Below are positions 53,784 through 61,755 of a DNA stretch of 64,000 bases, in pieces. Each line of letters opens with the position of its first letter. The first letter of the stretch is position 1. Origin of the DNA: Terrabacter sp. Ter38 (GTDB lineage: Bacteria > Actinomycetota > Actinomycetes > Actinomycetales > Dermatophilaceae); contig NZ_JALJRZ010000001.1 in the NCBI RefSeq assembly GCF_024519435.1, forward strand, positions 558,001 through 622,000. The letters are read 5' to 3'. The position numbers and the translations under genes are program-made. The notes beneath the pieces were generated by a model. The model was not told the DNA's origin and did no database searches. It saw nothing but the letters and a program-made list of their open reading frames with translations.

Positions 53784-54677
53784 TCAGCCCGCCGCGGCCT
53801 TCGTCGTCGTGGCGCTCGGCTTGCCGCTCTGGCTGGGGTTGACCGTGGCCTTCGTCGTCGGGGTCGTCGACGGCGTCGTCGGCGTCGGGACCTGCGAGAA
53901 GGTGCGCTCGGGAACGCCGAGCCACGTCACGTGGTCGATCGGCCAGACGACGAAGAGGGCGCGACCCACGATCTTGTCCATCGGCACCGAGCCCGTCGCC
54001 CCGGTGCCGTCGTCGTGCCAGCGGCTGTCCGAGGAGTCGCTGCGGTGGTCTCCCATGACCCAGACGCGCCCCGCGGGCACCGTGATGTCGAACTTCTTGC
54101 CCTCGCTCGGGTAGTCGCCGGGCTTGACGTAGGGCTCGGTGATCTCGACGCCGTTGACCTTGAGCTTGCCGGTGTCGCCGTCGGCCTGGACGTGGTCGCC
54201 CGGCAGGCCGATGACGCGCTTGATGAGGTGGTTCTCGGAGTCCTCGGGCAGCAGGCCGACGAAGACGAGGGCGTCGTGGAAGGGGCCACCGACGGTGCTG
54301 TGCTGCTCCTCGAGGTCGCCGAGCCACGGGGTGGGCACGCCGGGGTCCTCGAAGACGACGACGTCGCCGCGCTTGAGGTCGAGCGGTCCGGGCGTCAGCT
54401 TGCTGACGATGACGCGGTCGTCCTTGACGAGGGTGTTCTCCATCGACCCGGACGGGATGTAGAAGGCCTGGAAGAGCCAGGTCTTGACGACGAAGGACAG
54501 CGCCATCGCGAGCACGACGACGATGACGAGCTCCTTGACGCCGGCGAAGAGCGTGGCGCCGAAACCGCGGGGCTCGTCGTCGTAGTCGTCGTCGAGGTCG
54601 TCGTCGAGGTCACCGTCGGTGTCGTCAGCACCGCGCCCGCGCGTCGGGTCTTCGGGGCGTCCGGTGTACTGCGACAT
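53784..54677 (-). CDS. lepB: Signal peptidase I (second copy)
   Basis: The 297-residue leader peptidase cleaves Sec/Tat signal peptides outside the membrane. A very acidic cytoplasmic N-terminus (DGDLDDDLDDDYDDEP) precedes one membrane helix. The catalytic Ser78 is in YIPSGSMENT, Lys153 in LIKRVIGLPGD, and GDHRSDSSDSR is the conserved C-terminal box. A Thr/Pro/Ser-rich tail follows. It overlaps the upstream lepB gene, giving two tandem type I signal peptidases in one operon. A GTG three bases upstream is an alternative start. Confidence 0.93.
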   Translation of the reverse strand: MSQYTGRPEDPTRGRGADDTDGDLDDDLDDDYDDEPRGFGATLFAGVKELVIVVVLAMALSFVVKTWLFQAFYIPSGSMENTLVKDDRVIVSKLTPGPLDLKRGDVVVFEDPGVPTPWLGDLEEQHSTVGGPFHDALVFVGLLPEDSENHLIKRVIGLPGDHVQADGDTGKLKVNGVEITEPYVKPGDYPSEGKKFDITVPAGRVWVMGDHRSDSSDSRWHDDGTGATGSVPMDKIVGRALFVVWPIDHVTWLGVPERTFSQVPTPTTPSTTPTTKATVNPSQSGKPSATTTKAAAG

Positions 54678-55465
54678 CACTCACCATTTCGTGGGACGGA
54701 GGCAATTTGTCCTTGGTCGACCGATCCGAGCCGACCGAGCGGCCAGTATCGCACCCAAACCTTGCCGATGATGTCGTCACCCGGCACCATGCCGCCGCCC
54801 GGATCGCCGAGGTGCGCACGGGAGTCGGAGGACGAGCCGCGGTTGTCGCCCATGACCCAGAAGCGGTCGGCGGGCACCCTCACGTCGAAGGCCAGGGCGC
54901 TCGGTGTCTGGCCCGGTGCGACGTAGGGCTCGCTGACGGCGACGCCGTTGACCTCGAGCCGTCCGTCAGTCGCACAGCACCGGACGCGGTCGCCCGGCAG
55001 ACCGATGATCCGCTTGACGTAGTCGGTGGGCTGGCCCTTGCCGGCGAGGCTCTGGACGGCCTCGACGAGGGTCTGCACCATGCCGCGCTCGGGCACCCGC
55101 AGGTGGAACGCCTGGGAGGCGTCGAAGACGATGATGTCGCCGCGCTGGAGGTCGGCCGGCGTCGTGGTGCGGCTGACGAGGATCCGGTCGCCGATGAGGA
55201 GCGTGTCCTGCATCGACTCGCTCGGGATGCCGAAGGGCGTCACGAGGAAGGCCCGGACGACGACGATCGCGAGCAGGAGCAGCGCGGGGCCGAGCAGCCA
55301 CCGGTGACGTCGCGCGGCGGCATGCGCCGCGGGGGTGTGCCGGCCATCGCCGGCCCCCGACGGCGACGGCGACGTCGCGACGTCGTCCGCACACGACGAA
55401 GGCGCGGCGGACCCCGCCTGCTGGGACGTTCCGGATCGTTCCGGAACGGCCCGCTCGGGGTCCAC
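54677..55465 (-). CDS. lepB: Signal peptidase I (first copy)
   Basis: The 262-residue signal peptidase has one membrane helix (about residues 56-75), catalytic Ser84 in GIPSESMQDT, general base Lys151 in YVKRIIGLPGD and the GDNRGSSSDSR box. A Ser/Ala-rich 50-residue cytoplasmic stretch precedes the helix. It is distinct in sequence from the next gene, so the pair is old rather than a recent duplication. Both are encoded between rplS and rnhB, the standard actinobacterial setting. Confidence 0.93.
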   Translation of the reverse strand: MDPERAVPERSGTSQQAGSAAPSSCADDVATSPSPSGAGDGRHTPAAHAAARRHRWLLGPALLLLAIVVVRAFLVTPFGIPSESMQDTLLIGDRILVSRTTTPADLQRGDIIVFDASQAFHLRVPERGMVQTLVEAVQSLAGKGQPTDYVKRIIGLPGDRVRCCATDGRLEVNGVAVSEPYVAPGQTPSALAFDVRVPADRFWVMGDNRGSSSDSRAHLGDPGGGMVPGDDIIGKVWVRYWPLGRLGSVDQGQIASVPRNGE

Positions 55466-55507: not shown

Positions 55508-55882
55508 TCAGCTCTTCGCGCCGGTCTTGGACGGGATGCTGTCGCGCTTCTCGCGGATCTTGGCAGCCTTGCCGCGCAGACCGCGCAGGTAGTAGAGCTT
55601 CGCGCGACGGACGTCACCGCGCGTCATGACCTCGATCTTGTCGATGACGGGGGTGTGCACCGGGAAGGTGCGCTCGACGCCGACACCGAAGGAGATCTTG
55701 CGGACCGTGAACGTCTCGCCGATGCCGCCACCGTGGCGACGGATGACGATGCCCTGGAACACCTGGACACGCGAGCGCGTGCCCTCGATGACCTTGACGT
55801 GGACCTTGAGGGTGTCGCCGGCGCGGAAGTCGGGAACGTCCGAGCGCAGCGATGCCGCGTTGATGTCGTCAAACGTGTGCAT
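55508..55882 (-). CDS. rplS: 50S ribosomal protein L19
   Basis: The 124-residue protein of the large subunit lies at the 30S-50S interface. The family pattern is complete: [40 protein letters not shown], and the C-terminal [20 protein letters not shown]. Length is normal. It starts the rplS-lepB-lepB-rnhB-DUF2469 series, with a 229-bp leader and promoter region upstream, and is separated from trmD by a divergent fetB-like gene. Confidence 0.97.
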
Positions 55883-56885: not shown

Positions 56886-58076
56886 TCAGTGGCGGCGGCG
56901 CTTGACGAGGGTGACCGCGCCCGGGATCGGCGCGGCCGCGTCGACGAGGCGGTAGCCGGCCTTCTTGTACATCCGCAGGTTGTCGGTGCTGCGCGCGCCC
57001 GTGTGCAGCGTGAACGTGCGTATGCCGTCCGGCGCCGTCGACTCGGCGTGCTCGAGGAGGCGTCGGCCGAGTCCACGACCCTGGAGGTCGGGGACGACGC
57101 AGAGGCGCCCGACGAACCAGTCGTCGTCGGACGCCCCCGCGCTCGTGCGGACGGCTCCGACGAGGCGGCCGCCGCTCCGTGCGACCCACGTCTGCGTCGT
57201 CCCGAGGCTCGCCCGGACGTCGTCGAGGCTCTCGTGCAGGGCCGGGACGTCGAGCGTGTCGTTGGCGACGGCCTCCTGGACCCAGCACGCACGCATGAGC
57301 ACGGCGAGCTCGGGCACGTCCCCCGGCGTCGCGGCGCTGATGACGACGTCACCGCCGTCGGGGGCGACGTGCGAGGCGTGGAGCAGGTCGGGCCGCCGCG
57401 CCGCCGTGCGTGCCAGGCGCTGCTCGTGCCGCCAGGCGGCGATGACGCCGTGGTTGCCCGAGAGGAGGACCGGCGGGACGTCGCGGCCGTTCCACGAGGC
57501 GGGCTTGGTGTAGATGGGGTACTCGAGCAGCCCGTCCTGGTGCGACTCCTCGACGAGCGACTCGGCGTTGCCGATGACGCCGGGCACGAGTCGGCCGACG
57601 GCCTCGACCATGGCGAGGACCGCCACCTCGCCGCCGTTGAGGACGTAGTCGCCGAGGCTCACGACCGATACCTCCAGCCCGAGGTCCTCTCGGGCGTGGT
57701 CGTAGACGCGCTCGTCGATGCCCTCGTAGCGTCCGCAGGCGAAGGCGAGCCACGGCTCGTCGGCGAGCTCGCGCGCGAGCGCCTGGGTGAACGGCTGCCC
57801 ACCGGGCCCCGGGACGATCAGCCGGGGCTTCGCCTGCGACGGGTTGTCCTGGGCGAGAACATGGTCGAGCGCCTCGGACCAGGGCTGGGCCTTCATGACC
57901 ATGCCGGCTCCCCCGCCGTACGGGGTGTCGTCGACGGTGCGGTGCCGGTCGTGCGTGAAGTCCCGCAGGTCGTGGACGCGGACGTCGAGGAGGCCGTCCT
58001 CGCGCGCCTTGCCGATGAGCGACAGGTCGAGCGCGGCGAGGTAGTCGGGGAAGATCGAGATGACGTCGACGCGCAT
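56886..58076 (-). CDS. trmD: tRNA (guanine37-N1)-methyltransferase fused to a C-terminal GNAT acetyltransferase domain
   Basis: Residues 1-235 are TrmD, the trefoil-knot SAM methyltransferase that makes m1G37 in t[62 protein letters not shown] and the [11 protein letters not shown] end. Residues 250-396 form a complete GNAT domain with [20 protein letters not shown] as the acetyl-CoA loop and [10 protein letters not shown] near the end. No stop or frameshift separates them. Start: the canonical ATG was used; a GTG overlapping the rimM stop, with GAGGG upstream, would add 13 residues. Confidence 0.93.
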
Positions 58077-58111: not shown

Positions 58112-58639
58112 TCACTCGGTGCCCTCACGGTAGAGGTCGAAGAGGCCGGGCGGCGGATCGACGACGACGTGGTCCTCGGCGACGACGGGCACGATGCGCT
58201 TGACGAACGGGACGTAGGCCGTAACGCCGTCGGTGAGCGTGAGGACGAGCCGGTCCTGTGCGGGACCGATCTCGAGTCCGCTCACGGTGCCGACCTTCTC
58301 GCCGCTCGGGTCGCGGGCCTCGAGCCCGACGAGGTCCTCCTCGTAGAAGGCCTCGTCCTCGACCTGGGGGTTCGACTCGGGCAGCACGAGCCGCGTGCCG
58401 CGCAGGCTCTCGGCGCCGCTGCGGTCGGGGATCTCCTCGAAGGTGATGAGCCAGATGCCGCGGTGCACGCGCGTCGACGTGATGGTCAGCGTGGTGGGCA
58501 CGCCGGACCCCGGTTCGGCCTCGGTCTCGATGACGGTGCCGACCGCGAAGCGGGTCTCGGGGTCGTCGGTGTGCAGCTGGACGGTCACCTCTCCCCGCAG
58601 ACCGTGGGGCTTGCCGATGCGGGCGAGGACGACGTTCAT
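58112..58639 (-). CDS. rimM: 16S rRNA processing protein RimM
   Basis: RimM assists maturation of the 30S head near S19. The 175-residue protein has the N-terminal RimM domain ([20 protein letters not shown]) and a PRC-barrel C-terminal half ([20 protein letters not shown] and [13 protein letters not shown], with the acidic C-terminus). The ATG is preceded by AGAGGA. It is separated from khpA by a 125-bp gap with a strong hairpin and overlaps a possible upstream start of trmD. Confidence 0.95.
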
Positions 58640-58705
58640 GGGCCGAATCCTCTCAGGTTTGGTGGCGGTCGGAGACCCGTGCGCGAAGGTCGGACGCGGG
58701 GACAC

Positions 58706-58764: not shown

Positions 58765-59007
58765 TCAGCGCACGCGGTCGGTGTCGACGATGTCGACGCG
58801 CACGTTGTTGTTGCCCGCGAGGGCGCCGACGACGGTGCGCAGTGCACTCGCCGTGCGGCCGGAGCGGCCGATGACGCGGCCGAGGTCGTCGGGGTGGACC
58901 CGGACCTCGAGCAGCTCACCGCGGCGCAGCTCCTTGCGGACCACGACGACGTCCTCGTCGTGGTCGACGATGCCCTTGACGAGGTGCTCGAGCGCCTCCT
59001 CGAGCAT
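58765..59007 (-). CDS. khpA: KH-domain RNA-binding protein KhpA
   Basis: The 80-residue protein is a single KH domain with the RNA-binding GRVIGRSGRTASALRT loop (GxxG = GRSG) in the middle and VRVDIVDTDRVR at the C-terminus. KhpA binds RNA with a partner (KhpB) and affects cell division and translation in Gram-positive bacteria. It follows rpsP with a 2-bp gap, so it is made in the same transcript. Confidence 0.93.
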   Translation of the reverse strand: MLEEALEHLVKGIVDHDEDVVVVRKELRRGELLEVRVHPDDLGRVIGRSGRTASALRTVVGALAGNNNVRVDIVDTDRVR

Positions 59008-59009
59008 GC

Positions 59010-59495
59010 TCAGGCCTCGGCCTTCGCGGCGTCGTCGCCGGCAGCCTCGGCCGGAGCCTCGGTCGCCTCGTCGGTCTTGGCCTCGTCGGCCTTGGCCTCG
59101 TCGGCCTTGGCCTCAGCCTTGGGCTCGGCCTTCTTGGCGGCCTTCTTGCGGGGCGTCTGGCCGTCGGTGCCGGCGTCGTTCTTGCCGCCGGCAGCGGCGA
59201 TCGCGGCCTCGTAGAGGTCCTTCTTCGGGGTCTTCGGCTCCTTGGTCTGGAGCTTGCCCTCGTCGACGATCTTGATGAGCGCCGCGACGGCCTCGGTCGG
59301 CTGCGCGCCCTGGCCGAGCCAGTAGTGCGCGCGCTCGATGTCGATGTCGATGAGCGACGGCTGCTCGGTGGGGTGGTACTTGCCGATCTCCTCGATGGCA
59401 CGGCCGTCGCGCTTGGTGCGCGAGTCCATGACGACGACGCGGTAGAACGGTGCACGGATCTTGCCCATGCGCTTCAGACGGATCTTGACTGCCAT
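59010..59495 (-). CDS. rpsP: 30S ribosomal protein S16 with Lys/Glu/Ala-rich C-terminal extension
   Basis: The S16 core (about residues 1-85) is clear: [39 protein letters not shown] and [15 protein letters not shown]. About 75 further residues are low-complexity, with repeated KADEAK-like and AEA units, giving 161 residues against 82 in E. coli. The extension resembles that on S2 in this window. It begins the rpsP-khpA-rimM-trmD series, with a putative extended -10 promoter about 125 bp upstream. Confidence 0.97.
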
Positions 59496-59711: not shown

Positions 59712-60674
59712 TCAGGCGTGGGCCGCGTGGGCCGCGTGGGCCGCGCGGACGGCGAGGGCGTGGCGCACGACCTCGCGACGGGACACGTCGGTGGCGCCCT
59801 CGAGGACCGGCACTCCGGCGGGCTCGAAGCCCGCGCGGGCCAGGCCCATCCGCAGCTCCGGGGCACCGAGCCGGCACTCGACGACCCCGCCGACGGGTGA
59901 GACTCGGAGCAGCTCGAAGAGCGTCGCCGTGCTCTCGACGACGGACGCGGAGTAGAGCGGGATCCCGAGCTCGGCTGCCAGGGCCGAGGCGAGGCTCGTG
60001 CCGCCGTAGGCGCCGAAGGCCGTGGACCCCGAACCGCTCACGACGCAGGCGATGCGGCGGTGCCCGTGCGGTCGGTAGGGCACGGCCGGCCAGTCGGTGG
60101 ACAGCAGGGTGAAGCGGTCGTGGTCGCGCCAATCCCGCCGCCCGTCGATGCCGGGCAGGTGCAGGAAGTCGCGCGAGAAGCCCTCGTGGACGAAGCCGAG
60201 CGAGCGCACGAGCCCGGCCGAGCGATGGTTGGCCGGCTGGATGTTCGCCTCGACGCGGTGCAGGCCCATCCCGTGCGGCTGGTCGGCGAAGACGACGTCG
60301 AGCGTGAGACGCACGCCCTCGACGAAGAGCCCGCGGCCGGCATACGGGTCGTAGGAGTCGTAGCCCACGGTCGCGCTGCGGAAGGCCCCCTCGACGACGT
60401 TCGCGACGTTGATCCGCCCGACGAGGCCGTGCGAGCCCTCGGGGTCGAGCGCGTGCACCATGAAGGTCCGGTAGGTCGGCGACTGGTTGTCGATGACGAC
60501 CGGGAGGTTGTGCGGGTTCGGCATCGCGAAGTCCGCGAGGCGCCGTTCCGAGAGGGTCACGGCTGCGGCATACGACTCGATGTCGGCCGTCGACGGGGGA
60601 CGCACCTCCACGCGCTCTCCCACGGCGCTGAGGGGCGGCTCGTCGGCGGCGGGCTCGGGCCGGTGCTCAGACGA
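59712..60674 (-). CDS. GNAT family acetyltransferase (RimJ/RimL-like) with unrecognised C-terminal domain
   Basis: Residues about 18-195 form a RimJ/RimL-type GNAT domain with RVEVRPPSTADIESYAAAVT at the start and HRVEANIQPANHRSAGLVRSLGF as the acetyl-CoA site. The remaining 120 residues (CVVSGSGSTAFGAYGGTSLA onward, ending in RREVVRHALA) are not recognised. The C-terminus is a short AAH repeat coded by tandem 9-bp units. Start uncertain: a TTG with GAGG upstream that overlaps the amidohydrolase stop is used; a GTG 51 bp further in is the alternative. Confidence 0.75.
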   Translation of the reverse strand, partial: SSEHRPEPAADEPPLSAVGERVEVRPPSTADIESYAAAVTLSERRLADFAMPNPHNLPVVIDNQSPTYRTFMVHALDPEGSHGLVGRINVANVVEGAFRSATVGYDSYDPYAGRGLFVEGVRLTLDVVFADQPHGMGLHRVEANIQPANHRSAGLVRSLGFVHEGFSRDFLHLPGIDGRRDWRDHDRFTLLSTDWPAVPYRPHGHRRIACVVSGSGSTAFGAYGGTSLASALAAELGIPLYSASVVESTATLFELLRVSPVGGVVECRLGAPELRMGLARAGFEPAGVPVLEGATDVSRREVVRHALAVRAAHAAHAAHA

Positions 60675-61755
60675 CAACGCGACCTCGCAGCACGACACCC
60701 TGCGGGTCGCCGACGACGGTGACGTCGGCGATCGGGTCGGCGGCGTAGACGACGAGGTCGGCGTCCTCCCCCTCGACGATCCCGGGGCGTCCGAGCCACT
60801 CGCGCGCACCCCACGTCGCGGCCGCGACGACCTCGGCGTTCGTGAGGCCAGCCTTCGTCAGCTCGACCATCTCCTGTGCGACGAGACCGTGCGGGAGGCT
60901 GCCACCGGCGTCGGTGCCGACGTAGATCGGCACGCCGGCCTCGTGCGCCGCGCCGACCGTGGCGTAGCGCCGCTCGTGCAGGTCGAGCATGTGGCGGTGG
61001 TAGTCGGGAAACTTCGCCTTCGCCGGCTCCGCGAGGTCGGGGAACTGCGCGATGTTGACGAGGGTCGGCACGATGGCGATGCCCTGGGCGGCGAAGGTGT
61101 CGATGGAGTCCTCGCGCAGGCCGGTCGCGTGCTCGATGCAGTCGATGCCGGCGGCGGCGAGGTCGCGCAGGGACTCCTCGCCGAAGCAGTGCGCCGTGAC
61201 GCGGACCCCCTCCTCGTGCGCGGCCGCGACCGCGTCGGCGACGGCCTGTCGCGACCAGCTCGGCGCGAGGTCGCCGACGTCGCGGTCGATCCAGTCGCCG
61301 ACGAGCTTGACCCACCCGTCGCCACGGTGAGCCTCGAGCCGGACGTGGCGGACGAGCTCGTGCTCCTCGACCTCGTGGGCGTAGTTGCGGATGTAGCGCC
61401 GGGTGCGGGCGATGTGGCGACCGGCGCGGATGATCTTGGGCAGGTCGTCGCGGTCGTCGACCCAGTGCGTGTCGCCGGGCTGCCCCGCGTCGCGGATGAG
61501 CAGCGTGCCGCGGTCACGGTCGGTGATCGCCTGCTGCTCGGCCACCTCGCGCGGCACGCCGCCGTGCGGCCCCAGACCGACGTGGCAGTGGGCGTCGACG
61601 AGGCCCGGCAGCACCCAGCCCTCGAGCGTCTGCACGTCGCTCCCGTCGCTCGGCGGCGTGAACGACACACGTCCCCCGATGACCCACAGCTCGTCGACGA
61701 CGTCGTCGGGACCGACGAGCACCCGACCGCGGACGTGGAGCACCGGTGCACTCAT
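60667..61755 (-). CDS. Amidohydrolase family protein (imidazolonepropionase/prolidase-like)
   Basis: The 362-residue TIM-barrel metal hydrolase has the first metal motif DAHCHVGLG (near residue 55), a carboxylated-Lys candidate in VKLVGDWIDRD, TAHCFGEES with a further His, and YVGTDAGG with the last Asp. The C-terminus returns to the small beta-sandwich domain (GRPGIVEGEDADLVVYAADP). The substrate is unknown; similar proteins split dipeptides, hydantoins or cyclic amides. It is followed closely by the GNAT gene and preceded by an alpha/beta hydrolase. Confidence 0.85.
   Translation of the reverse strand: MSAPVLHVRGRVLVGPDDVVDELWVIGGRVSFTPPSDGSDVQTLEGWVLPGLVDAHCHVGLGPHGGVPREVAEQQAITDRDRGTLLIRDAGQPGDTHWVDDRDDLPKIIRAGRHIARTRRYIRNYAHEVEEHELVRHVRLEAHRGDGWVKLVGDWIDRDVGDLAPSWSRQAVADAVAAAHEEGVRVTAHCFGEESLRDLAAAGIDCIEHATGLREDSIDTFAAQGIAIVPTLVNIAQFPDLAEPAKAKFPDYHRHMLDLHERRYATVGAAHEAGVPIYVGTDAGGSLPHGLVAQEMVELTKAGLTNAEVVAAATWGAREWLGRPGIVEGEDADLVVYAADPIADVTVVGDPQGVVLRGRVVV

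Follow-up and report, generated by a model that had tools for sequence, protein, structure and literature searches.

TrmD is a tRNA methyltransferase that most bacteria studied cannot do without, and it serves as a drug target. In the soil actinobacterium Terrabacter sp. Ter38 it carries a GNAT-family acetyltransferase at its C-terminus. The fusion lies in a 64,000-nucleotide stretch of the genome, analyzed as a whole and called here the window. We propose that the protein is a bifunctional enzyme whose tethered, accessory acetyltransferase would act near tRNA modification or ribosome assembly, a reading to which we give a probability of roughly one half. One fusion of TrmD to another enzyme is already in print, TrmD–Tm1570, described in the accessible parts of PMC11187310. 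What is new here is that in families f3, f13, and f14 this end of TrmD bears another kind of GNAT, one that is PaiA-like.

One open reading frame, two domains

The fusion is a single open reading frame on the minus strand (56886–58076) that starts with ATG at 58076 and encodes 396 amino acids plus the stop, with no internal stops (Table 1). The genome holds one copy. No in-frame ATG, GTG, or TTG that could serve as a separate GNAT start exists at residues 205–253. Internal initiation is thus unlikely to yield the GNAT as a protein of its own.

Table 1. Features of the TrmD–GNAT fusion and its neighborhood in the window.
Feature	Position	Strand	Basis
TrmD methyltransferase domain, residues 1–232	57381–58076	-	Pfam PF01746 and NCBIfam NF000648/TIGR00088, over cut-off
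Linker, residues 233–244	57345–57380	-	Low pLDDT at 238–241; relaxed dN/dS of 0.68 (residues 233–246)
GNAT acetyltransferase domain, residues 245–396, with stop codon	56886–57344	-	Pfam PF13508/PF00583/PF13673; structural model; PDB matches
Acetyl-CoA pyrophosphate loop, Q332-G-R-G-L-G337	57066–57083	-	Sequence motif; glycines kept in type-A rows
Glu282, nearly invariant; possible catalytic or substrate residue (putative role)	57231–57233	-	80/84 type-A rows
Tyr370, usual position of the GNAT general-acid Tyr (putative role)	56967–56969	-	77/84 type-A rows
Basic C-terminal tail KRRR, typical of TrmD-fused type-A GNATs	56892–56903	-	Net charge comparison
RimM, gene upstream of the fusion	58112–58705	-	Pfam
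KH-domain protein, KhpA/KhpB type	58765–59007	-	Pfam PF13083
Ribosomal protein S16	59010–59495	-	Pfam
Ribosomal protein L19, downstream of the fusion, same strand	55508–55882	-	Pfam
UPF0014 gene, convergent, between the fusion and L19	56112–56870	+	Pfam PF03649

Residues 1–232 score as a full TrmD (NF000648, TIGR00088). Specifically, the fusion reaches 303.3 bits against the TrmD equivalog NF000648 of NCBIfam (cut-off 220) and 248.8 bits against a second curated model (cut-off 195), and Pfam places tRNA_m1G_MT at residues 22–229 (E 1.4e-61). The motif GRYEG.D (residues 115–121) and residues S140, G142, and D143, which we take to be the SAM-binding knot motifs, are invariant in 49/49 fused proteins. 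The minus-strand gene order, S16, the KhpA/KhpB-type KH protein, RimM, and then TrmD–GNAT, also matches that of known TrmD. The difference lies in the extra GNAT of about 150 residues. Many actinobacterial TrmDs instead end in a tail of about 28–36 residues; among the unfused proteins (L159–L177, L253–L270), many share the pattern LD...LD..DLAVLAE.GW...G, which was not seen on TrmD where a GNAT is fused.

The GNAT half matches Acetyltransf_7 (PF13508) at residues 295–376 with 48.1 bits (Pfam cut-off 27), and the fusion scores 47.0 bits against Acetyltransf_1 (PF00583, cut-off 20.7) and 41.2 bits against PF13673 (cut-off 23.6). The acetyl-CoA loop reads D330-L-Q-G-R-G-L-G and fits Q/R-x-x-G-x-G/A, and Tyr370 occupies what is presumably the position of the usual GNAT general acid. 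Thus far the sequence-only reading of this DNA stands: it had TrmD running unbroken into a full GNAT with an acetyl-CoA loop, and one 396-codon frame, two domains over cut-off, and the loop QGRGLG are indeed present.

The GNAT half is under purifying selection: its dN/dS over nine close sequences is 0.23, compared with 0.10 in TrmD and 0.68 in the linker.

A fold search with the whole-protein model returned only TrmD entries among the 50 rows listed, so the GNAT half was modeled alone. Residues 241–396 by themselves reach a mean pLDDT of 94.7 and match PDB structures with Z up to 20.3 (3f0a: Z 20.3, rmsd 1.9, 148 aligned). The top-ranked folds are those of protein N-terminal and small-molecule acetyltransferases, in a best 50 that span Z 17.7–20.3, and this ranking does not decide the substrate. 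In the whole-protein model both domains are mostly confident, confidence is low for the linker and for TrmD residues 54–57 and 174–188, and the pTM is 0.48. Because of the low-confidence linker and this pTM, the relative placement of the two domains is not fixed by the model.

We call the GNAT of the window's fusion type A. RimM lies upstream of the fusion in 63/64 named type-A loci, the exception being L054, in which none was found. A UPF0014 homolog occurs in 20 of the 64, directly downstream of the fusion in 18, and L19 begins at most about 250 bases past the fusion in most Nocardioides loci. Two further features of the window's neighborhood can be recorded. Upstream of S16, a second GNAT gene (Acetyltransf_3; 59712–60809, minus strand) possesses a C-terminal extension of about 150 residues with no Pfam match, and its homologs lie upstream of the fusion in 12/64 named loci, including those of Terrabacter, Humibacillus, and Intrasporangium. 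Downstream of L19, the minus strand carries two adjoining genes (53784–54680 and 54677–55465) that appear signal peptidase I-like from their translations.

Spread, loss, and decay of the type-A fusion

All nine genomes searched in the genus, the window's included, have a full-length fusion match with no stop inside. In the window's own family, the match extends at least to residue 340 in 126/163 genomes and 37 are unfused, among the matches listed. Counts for the family, for the class sample, and for families f14 and f3 were made by eye, and the family count joins pieces of one genome. Counted among the 126 are decayed copies (G022, G071, G116) and four genomes whose match is fragmented or comes from the end of a contig (G014, G025, G101, G179); 9 of the 37 unfused calls (G131, G140, G141, G145, G147, G148, G153, G154, G156) were made from the best E-value alone. 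Of 393 genomes sampled from the class, 31 match as far as residue 377 or beyond, namely 7/8 from the own family, 23/39 from f41, and G367 of f52 (among the matches listed). Family f41 is probably Nocardioidaceae, going by its named loci and the tree, and within it genus g107 is fused in 19/20 genomes, again among the matches listed. G540, a congener of G367, has an unfused TrmD; it also has a GNAT, L189, of the same subfamily as type A (50%), near a ChrB-like gene. The type-A fusion was found in f11 too (L258). Among the matches listed for a phylum sample of 246 genomes, only own-family genomes (three) carry it. The window's genome is close to Terrabacter: within the named collection, strains of Terracoccus and Terrabacter match it best, at 94–97%.

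The fusion is no assembly accident, given that 9/9 genomes of the genus, 126/163 of the family, and 23/39 of f41 are fused. These figures also answer the search for the fusion in relatives that the sequence-only reading had proposed (own family and f41 counts among the matches listed). The frameshift or stop between the domains that would have spoken against a real fusion in close strains was absent from 9/9 genus genomes.

Conservation of the GNAT half is high but incomplete. In a type-A alignment of 84 rows, in which the window counts twice, loop glycine G335 is kept in 81 and G337 in 80. The strict loop Q/R/K-x-x-G-x-G/A or the Tyr is missing in 16/84 rows, of which about seven seem to be genuinely decayed (L054, L085 with a shifted end, L133, L146, L157, L180, and L178). 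In the Kribbia fusion (L158, the same protein as L092), the tail falls below Pfam scoring as a GNAT. Judged by motif, the acetyl-CoA site is intact in the window, whereas some relatives at greater distance have lost the motif. TrmD is intact in relatives with a decayed GNAT. Such decay beside intact TrmD, together with the unfused genomes, indicates that TrmD does not depend on the GNAT. Moreover, a GNAT search in five unfused own-family genomes returned distant matches only (31–40% identity, E above 1e-7) or none. Thus, GNAT activity is dispensable.

The TrmD-fused type-A GNATs tend to end in basic residues. Their last 12 residues carry a net charge that averages +3.2 (range -2 to 6) in the 84 TrmD-fused rows versus +0.08 in 12 relatives outside TrmD, near-copies among them. 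This comparison, made with a small group and among related rows, hints that the basic tail may bear on the substrate of the type-A GNAT.

A second, unrelated acetyltransferase on TrmD

In locus L171 of family f14, TrmD carries a different GNAT, here called type B, at the same end. The gene order is S16–KH–RimM–TrmD–GNAT–L19, with the flanking genes read from sequence. A match was found in 23/24 f14 genomes, and every one of these is fused: in 17 a single match spans the fusion (one of them truncated where the contig ends), and in 6 adjacent matches share one frame; the remaining genome, an 89% complete draft, has no match. In the f3 sample, the match ends at residue 371 or beyond, of 431, in 26/30 genomes (three of these matches begin only at residues 52–58) and stops at 233–307 in the other four, among the matches listed. 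Both f3 proteins tested contain TrmD and GNAT domains in Pfam. The single f13 genome read (L259) likewise has a type-B fusion.

The type-B GNAT of L171 resembles PaiA-like GNATs, with 53.8 bits against NF053587, and its assignment as PaiA itself was rejected because this score is under the curated cut-off of 250. The window's type-A GNAT has no significant match to this PaiA-like domain (16.5 bits, E 0.18). Among 174 GNAT sequences, a type-B query gave at most 17 bits against any fused type A, and a type-A query gave no reported hits to fused type B. Each type does have relatives outside TrmD: the window's GNAT shares 47% identity with the GNAT of an FMN reductase fusion, and the type-B GNAT is 52% identical to a stand-alone protein in the window's own genome. 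Types A and B are thus mutually unmatched, although both have relatives outside TrmD at about 50% identity, so that this end of TrmD must have captured a GNAT independently at least twice, in different actinobacteria. That two unrelated types recur here favors a link to tRNA modification or translation more than an isolated case would.

Type B retains the Tyr in 42/42 rows, with one loop glycine replaced in nine rows and the other in seven. It possesses no basic tail, the mean charge being -0.52 in the fused rows (42) and -0.73 in the free ones (30).

Trees were built after removal of near-copies and fragments and thinning of Nocardioides. One origin for all type-A fusions receives an AU p of 0.055, and the GNAT of the f52 fusion groups with stand-alone GNATs. 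For type B, the test does not reject a single clade (p 0.36). In fused Nocardioidaceae, the TrmD half mostly clusters with that of unfused Nocardioidaceae rather than with the window's own family.

Comparison with known systems

The closest precedent for the architecture is TrmD–Tm1570, which PDB entry 8b1n presumably represents. Its accessible description likewise places a second enzyme domain on the TrmD C-terminus (PF01746–PF09936; PMC11187310). There the partner is a SPOUT methyltransferase, whereas the window's partner is a GNAT: in a Pfam scan PF09936 had no match in the window's fusion, and GNAT models matched there instead. The main text of PMC11187310 has no mentions of acetyltransferase or GNAT.

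A different parallel comes from RimI, a GNAT that is likewise genetically linked to enzymes of tRNA position 37, being encoded among tsaE, tsaB, and tsaD. In the window's genome, RimI is encoded among TsaE and two TsaD-family genes, which we read as tsaB and tsaD, putative t6A37 enzymes. Thus, a GNAT near a position-37 enzyme is not unique to the TrmD fusion. RimI is a separate gene, whereas the window's GNAT is fused to TrmD, and identification of the latter as RimI, the S18 acetyltransferase, was rejected: it scores 26.2 bits against TIGR01575, far under the cut-off of 86.4, and the genome's separate RimI scores 111.9. According to the accessible parts of PMC4926160, Mycobacterium tuberculosis RimI interacts with TsaD and acetylates a peptide of the TsaD N-terminus, although it does not acetylate folded TsaB–TsaD.

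Members of the type-A subfamily also occur in other settings. The GNATs of FMN reductase–GNAT fusions (L154, L208, L210, L213) and the L189 GNAT are 46–48% identical to the window's, differing in that they have another partner or none and little or no basic tail. The FMN reductase fusions (L154:1676–2779, L208, L210, L213), from the own family, f35, and f48, are apparently another bifunctional pair.

The TrmD–GNAT architecture is presumably present in domain databases through automatic listing. No description of such a fusion was found by title or abstract among the papers searched, or in the accessible passages that mention the terms together. The SPOUT survey and SPOUT review among PMC1829167, PMC1282579, and PMC9508554 do not mention acetyltransferase or GNAT in their accessible parts. 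Three papers (PMC8546594, PMC10962704, PMC12637814) mention TrmD and acetyltransferase together for reasons that, in the passages seen, are unrelated.

Possible functions of the fused acetyltransferase

We propose the following. A normal TrmD, known to be a dimer, would make m1G37, and a GNAT would be attached to it by a short flexible linker. The GNAT half would be catalytically competent and dependent on acetyl-CoA, and we consider activity quite probable. Through its tether, the GNAT would reach a substrate linked to translation that approaches TrmD. Candidate targets would be a protein N-terminus or a lysine in the tRNA-modification or ribosome-assembly neighborhood, or TrmD itself; tRNA would be less likely. 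Acetylation would be an accessory and conditionally beneficial activity that methylation does not need. For a bifunctional enzyme we count the intact signatures, the open frame, conservation, the dN/dS of 0.23, the confident GNAT model, the second capture, the basic tail, and the RimI parallel. Against it stand the unfused genomes, the decayed halves, the FMN reductase fusion, the missing tail and the loop losses of type B, and the folded TsaB–TsaD that RimI left unacetylated; the two lists leave the proposal about evenly poised. The sequence-only reading had gone further, proposing regulated acetylation connected with tRNA modification or translation, for instance of a ribosomal protein or TrmD itself; TrmD, S16, RimM, L19, and tRNA would be candidate targets. 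The connection with tRNA modification or translation gains from a fusion that is conserved, under selection, recurrent, and preceded by RimM, whereas the 37/163 unfused family genomes (among the matches listed) and the several decayed GNATs are evidence against a tight regulatory role.

Because this GNAT family is mobile and often lost, a serious rival is that an ordinary detoxifying or metabolic GNAT was joined to trmD by chance and kept for co-expression with a highly expressed ribosomal operon, its substrate having nothing to do with tRNA. We give this account a real, if minority, chance. Type-A GNATs do occur on FMN reductases and alone, type B stands alone even in the window's genome, and loss and decay are frequent; the same type-A GNAT on FMN reductase means that the domain may be a generic mobile one with a small-molecule substrate. 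A chance joining sits less well with two unrelated GNATs found on the same terminus of a single essential protein across much of at least three families, or with a basic tail typical of the TrmD-fused type A. Nor did the part checked reveal a GNAT gene right after unfused trmD as a source of the fusion: among 78 unfused-trmD loci (some genomes twice), 20 of the 63 same-strand open reading frames (one per locus) were run in Pfam and none was a GNAT. L19 lies within 400 bases of unfused trmD in 40/78 of these loci, and in L144 the neighboring open reading frame is a transposase. A type-A copy relocated after loss was not found either: each unfused family genome has one match (up to 11 candidates scored in each, among the matches listed), except G136, with two that are both parts of TrmD. 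PADLOC assigned neither GNAT type to a toxin or defense family, which alone does not exclude such a role.

The GNAT might instead add a second mark to the very tRNA that TrmD methylates. Its tethering behind the C-terminal domain of TrmD and its KRRR tail would suit this activity, and enzymes that acetylate tRNA exist, TmcA among them. Another, AcpA, has an acetyltransferase domain and acetylates tRNA to form acacp3U, as the accessible parts of PMC10962704 report. Nonetheless, the best-ranked folds are those of protein N-terminal and small-molecule acetyltransferases (fold alone shows no function), and type B lacks the basic tail. Moreover, we know of no acetylated nucleoside in these organisms, and tRNA acetylation seems improbable to us. 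Finally, the GNAT half could be a structural or acetyl-CoA-sensing extension that modulates TrmD with no catalysis of its own. Decayed GNAT halves do remain attached in some lineages, but the loop and Tyr are kept in most copies and many TrmDs have no extension at all, and we regard this as very unlikely.

Returning to the bifunctional enzyme, two or more independent fusions suggest that these bacteria have something near TrmD worth acetylating. The fusion is a directly testable enzyme, and it comes with a short list of candidates for a substrate search. We speculate, tentatively and with considerably more doubt than belief, that actinobacteria captured GNATs repeatedly because acetylation at the site of tRNA-37 modification is useful: an acetyl-CoA-dependent step could tune TrmD, the tRNA, or a ribosome-assembly factor, coupling carbon status to reading-frame fidelity. 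If so, central carbon status would be tied to the fidelity of the reading frame in these bacteria, in parallel with RimI in the t6A37 gene cluster.
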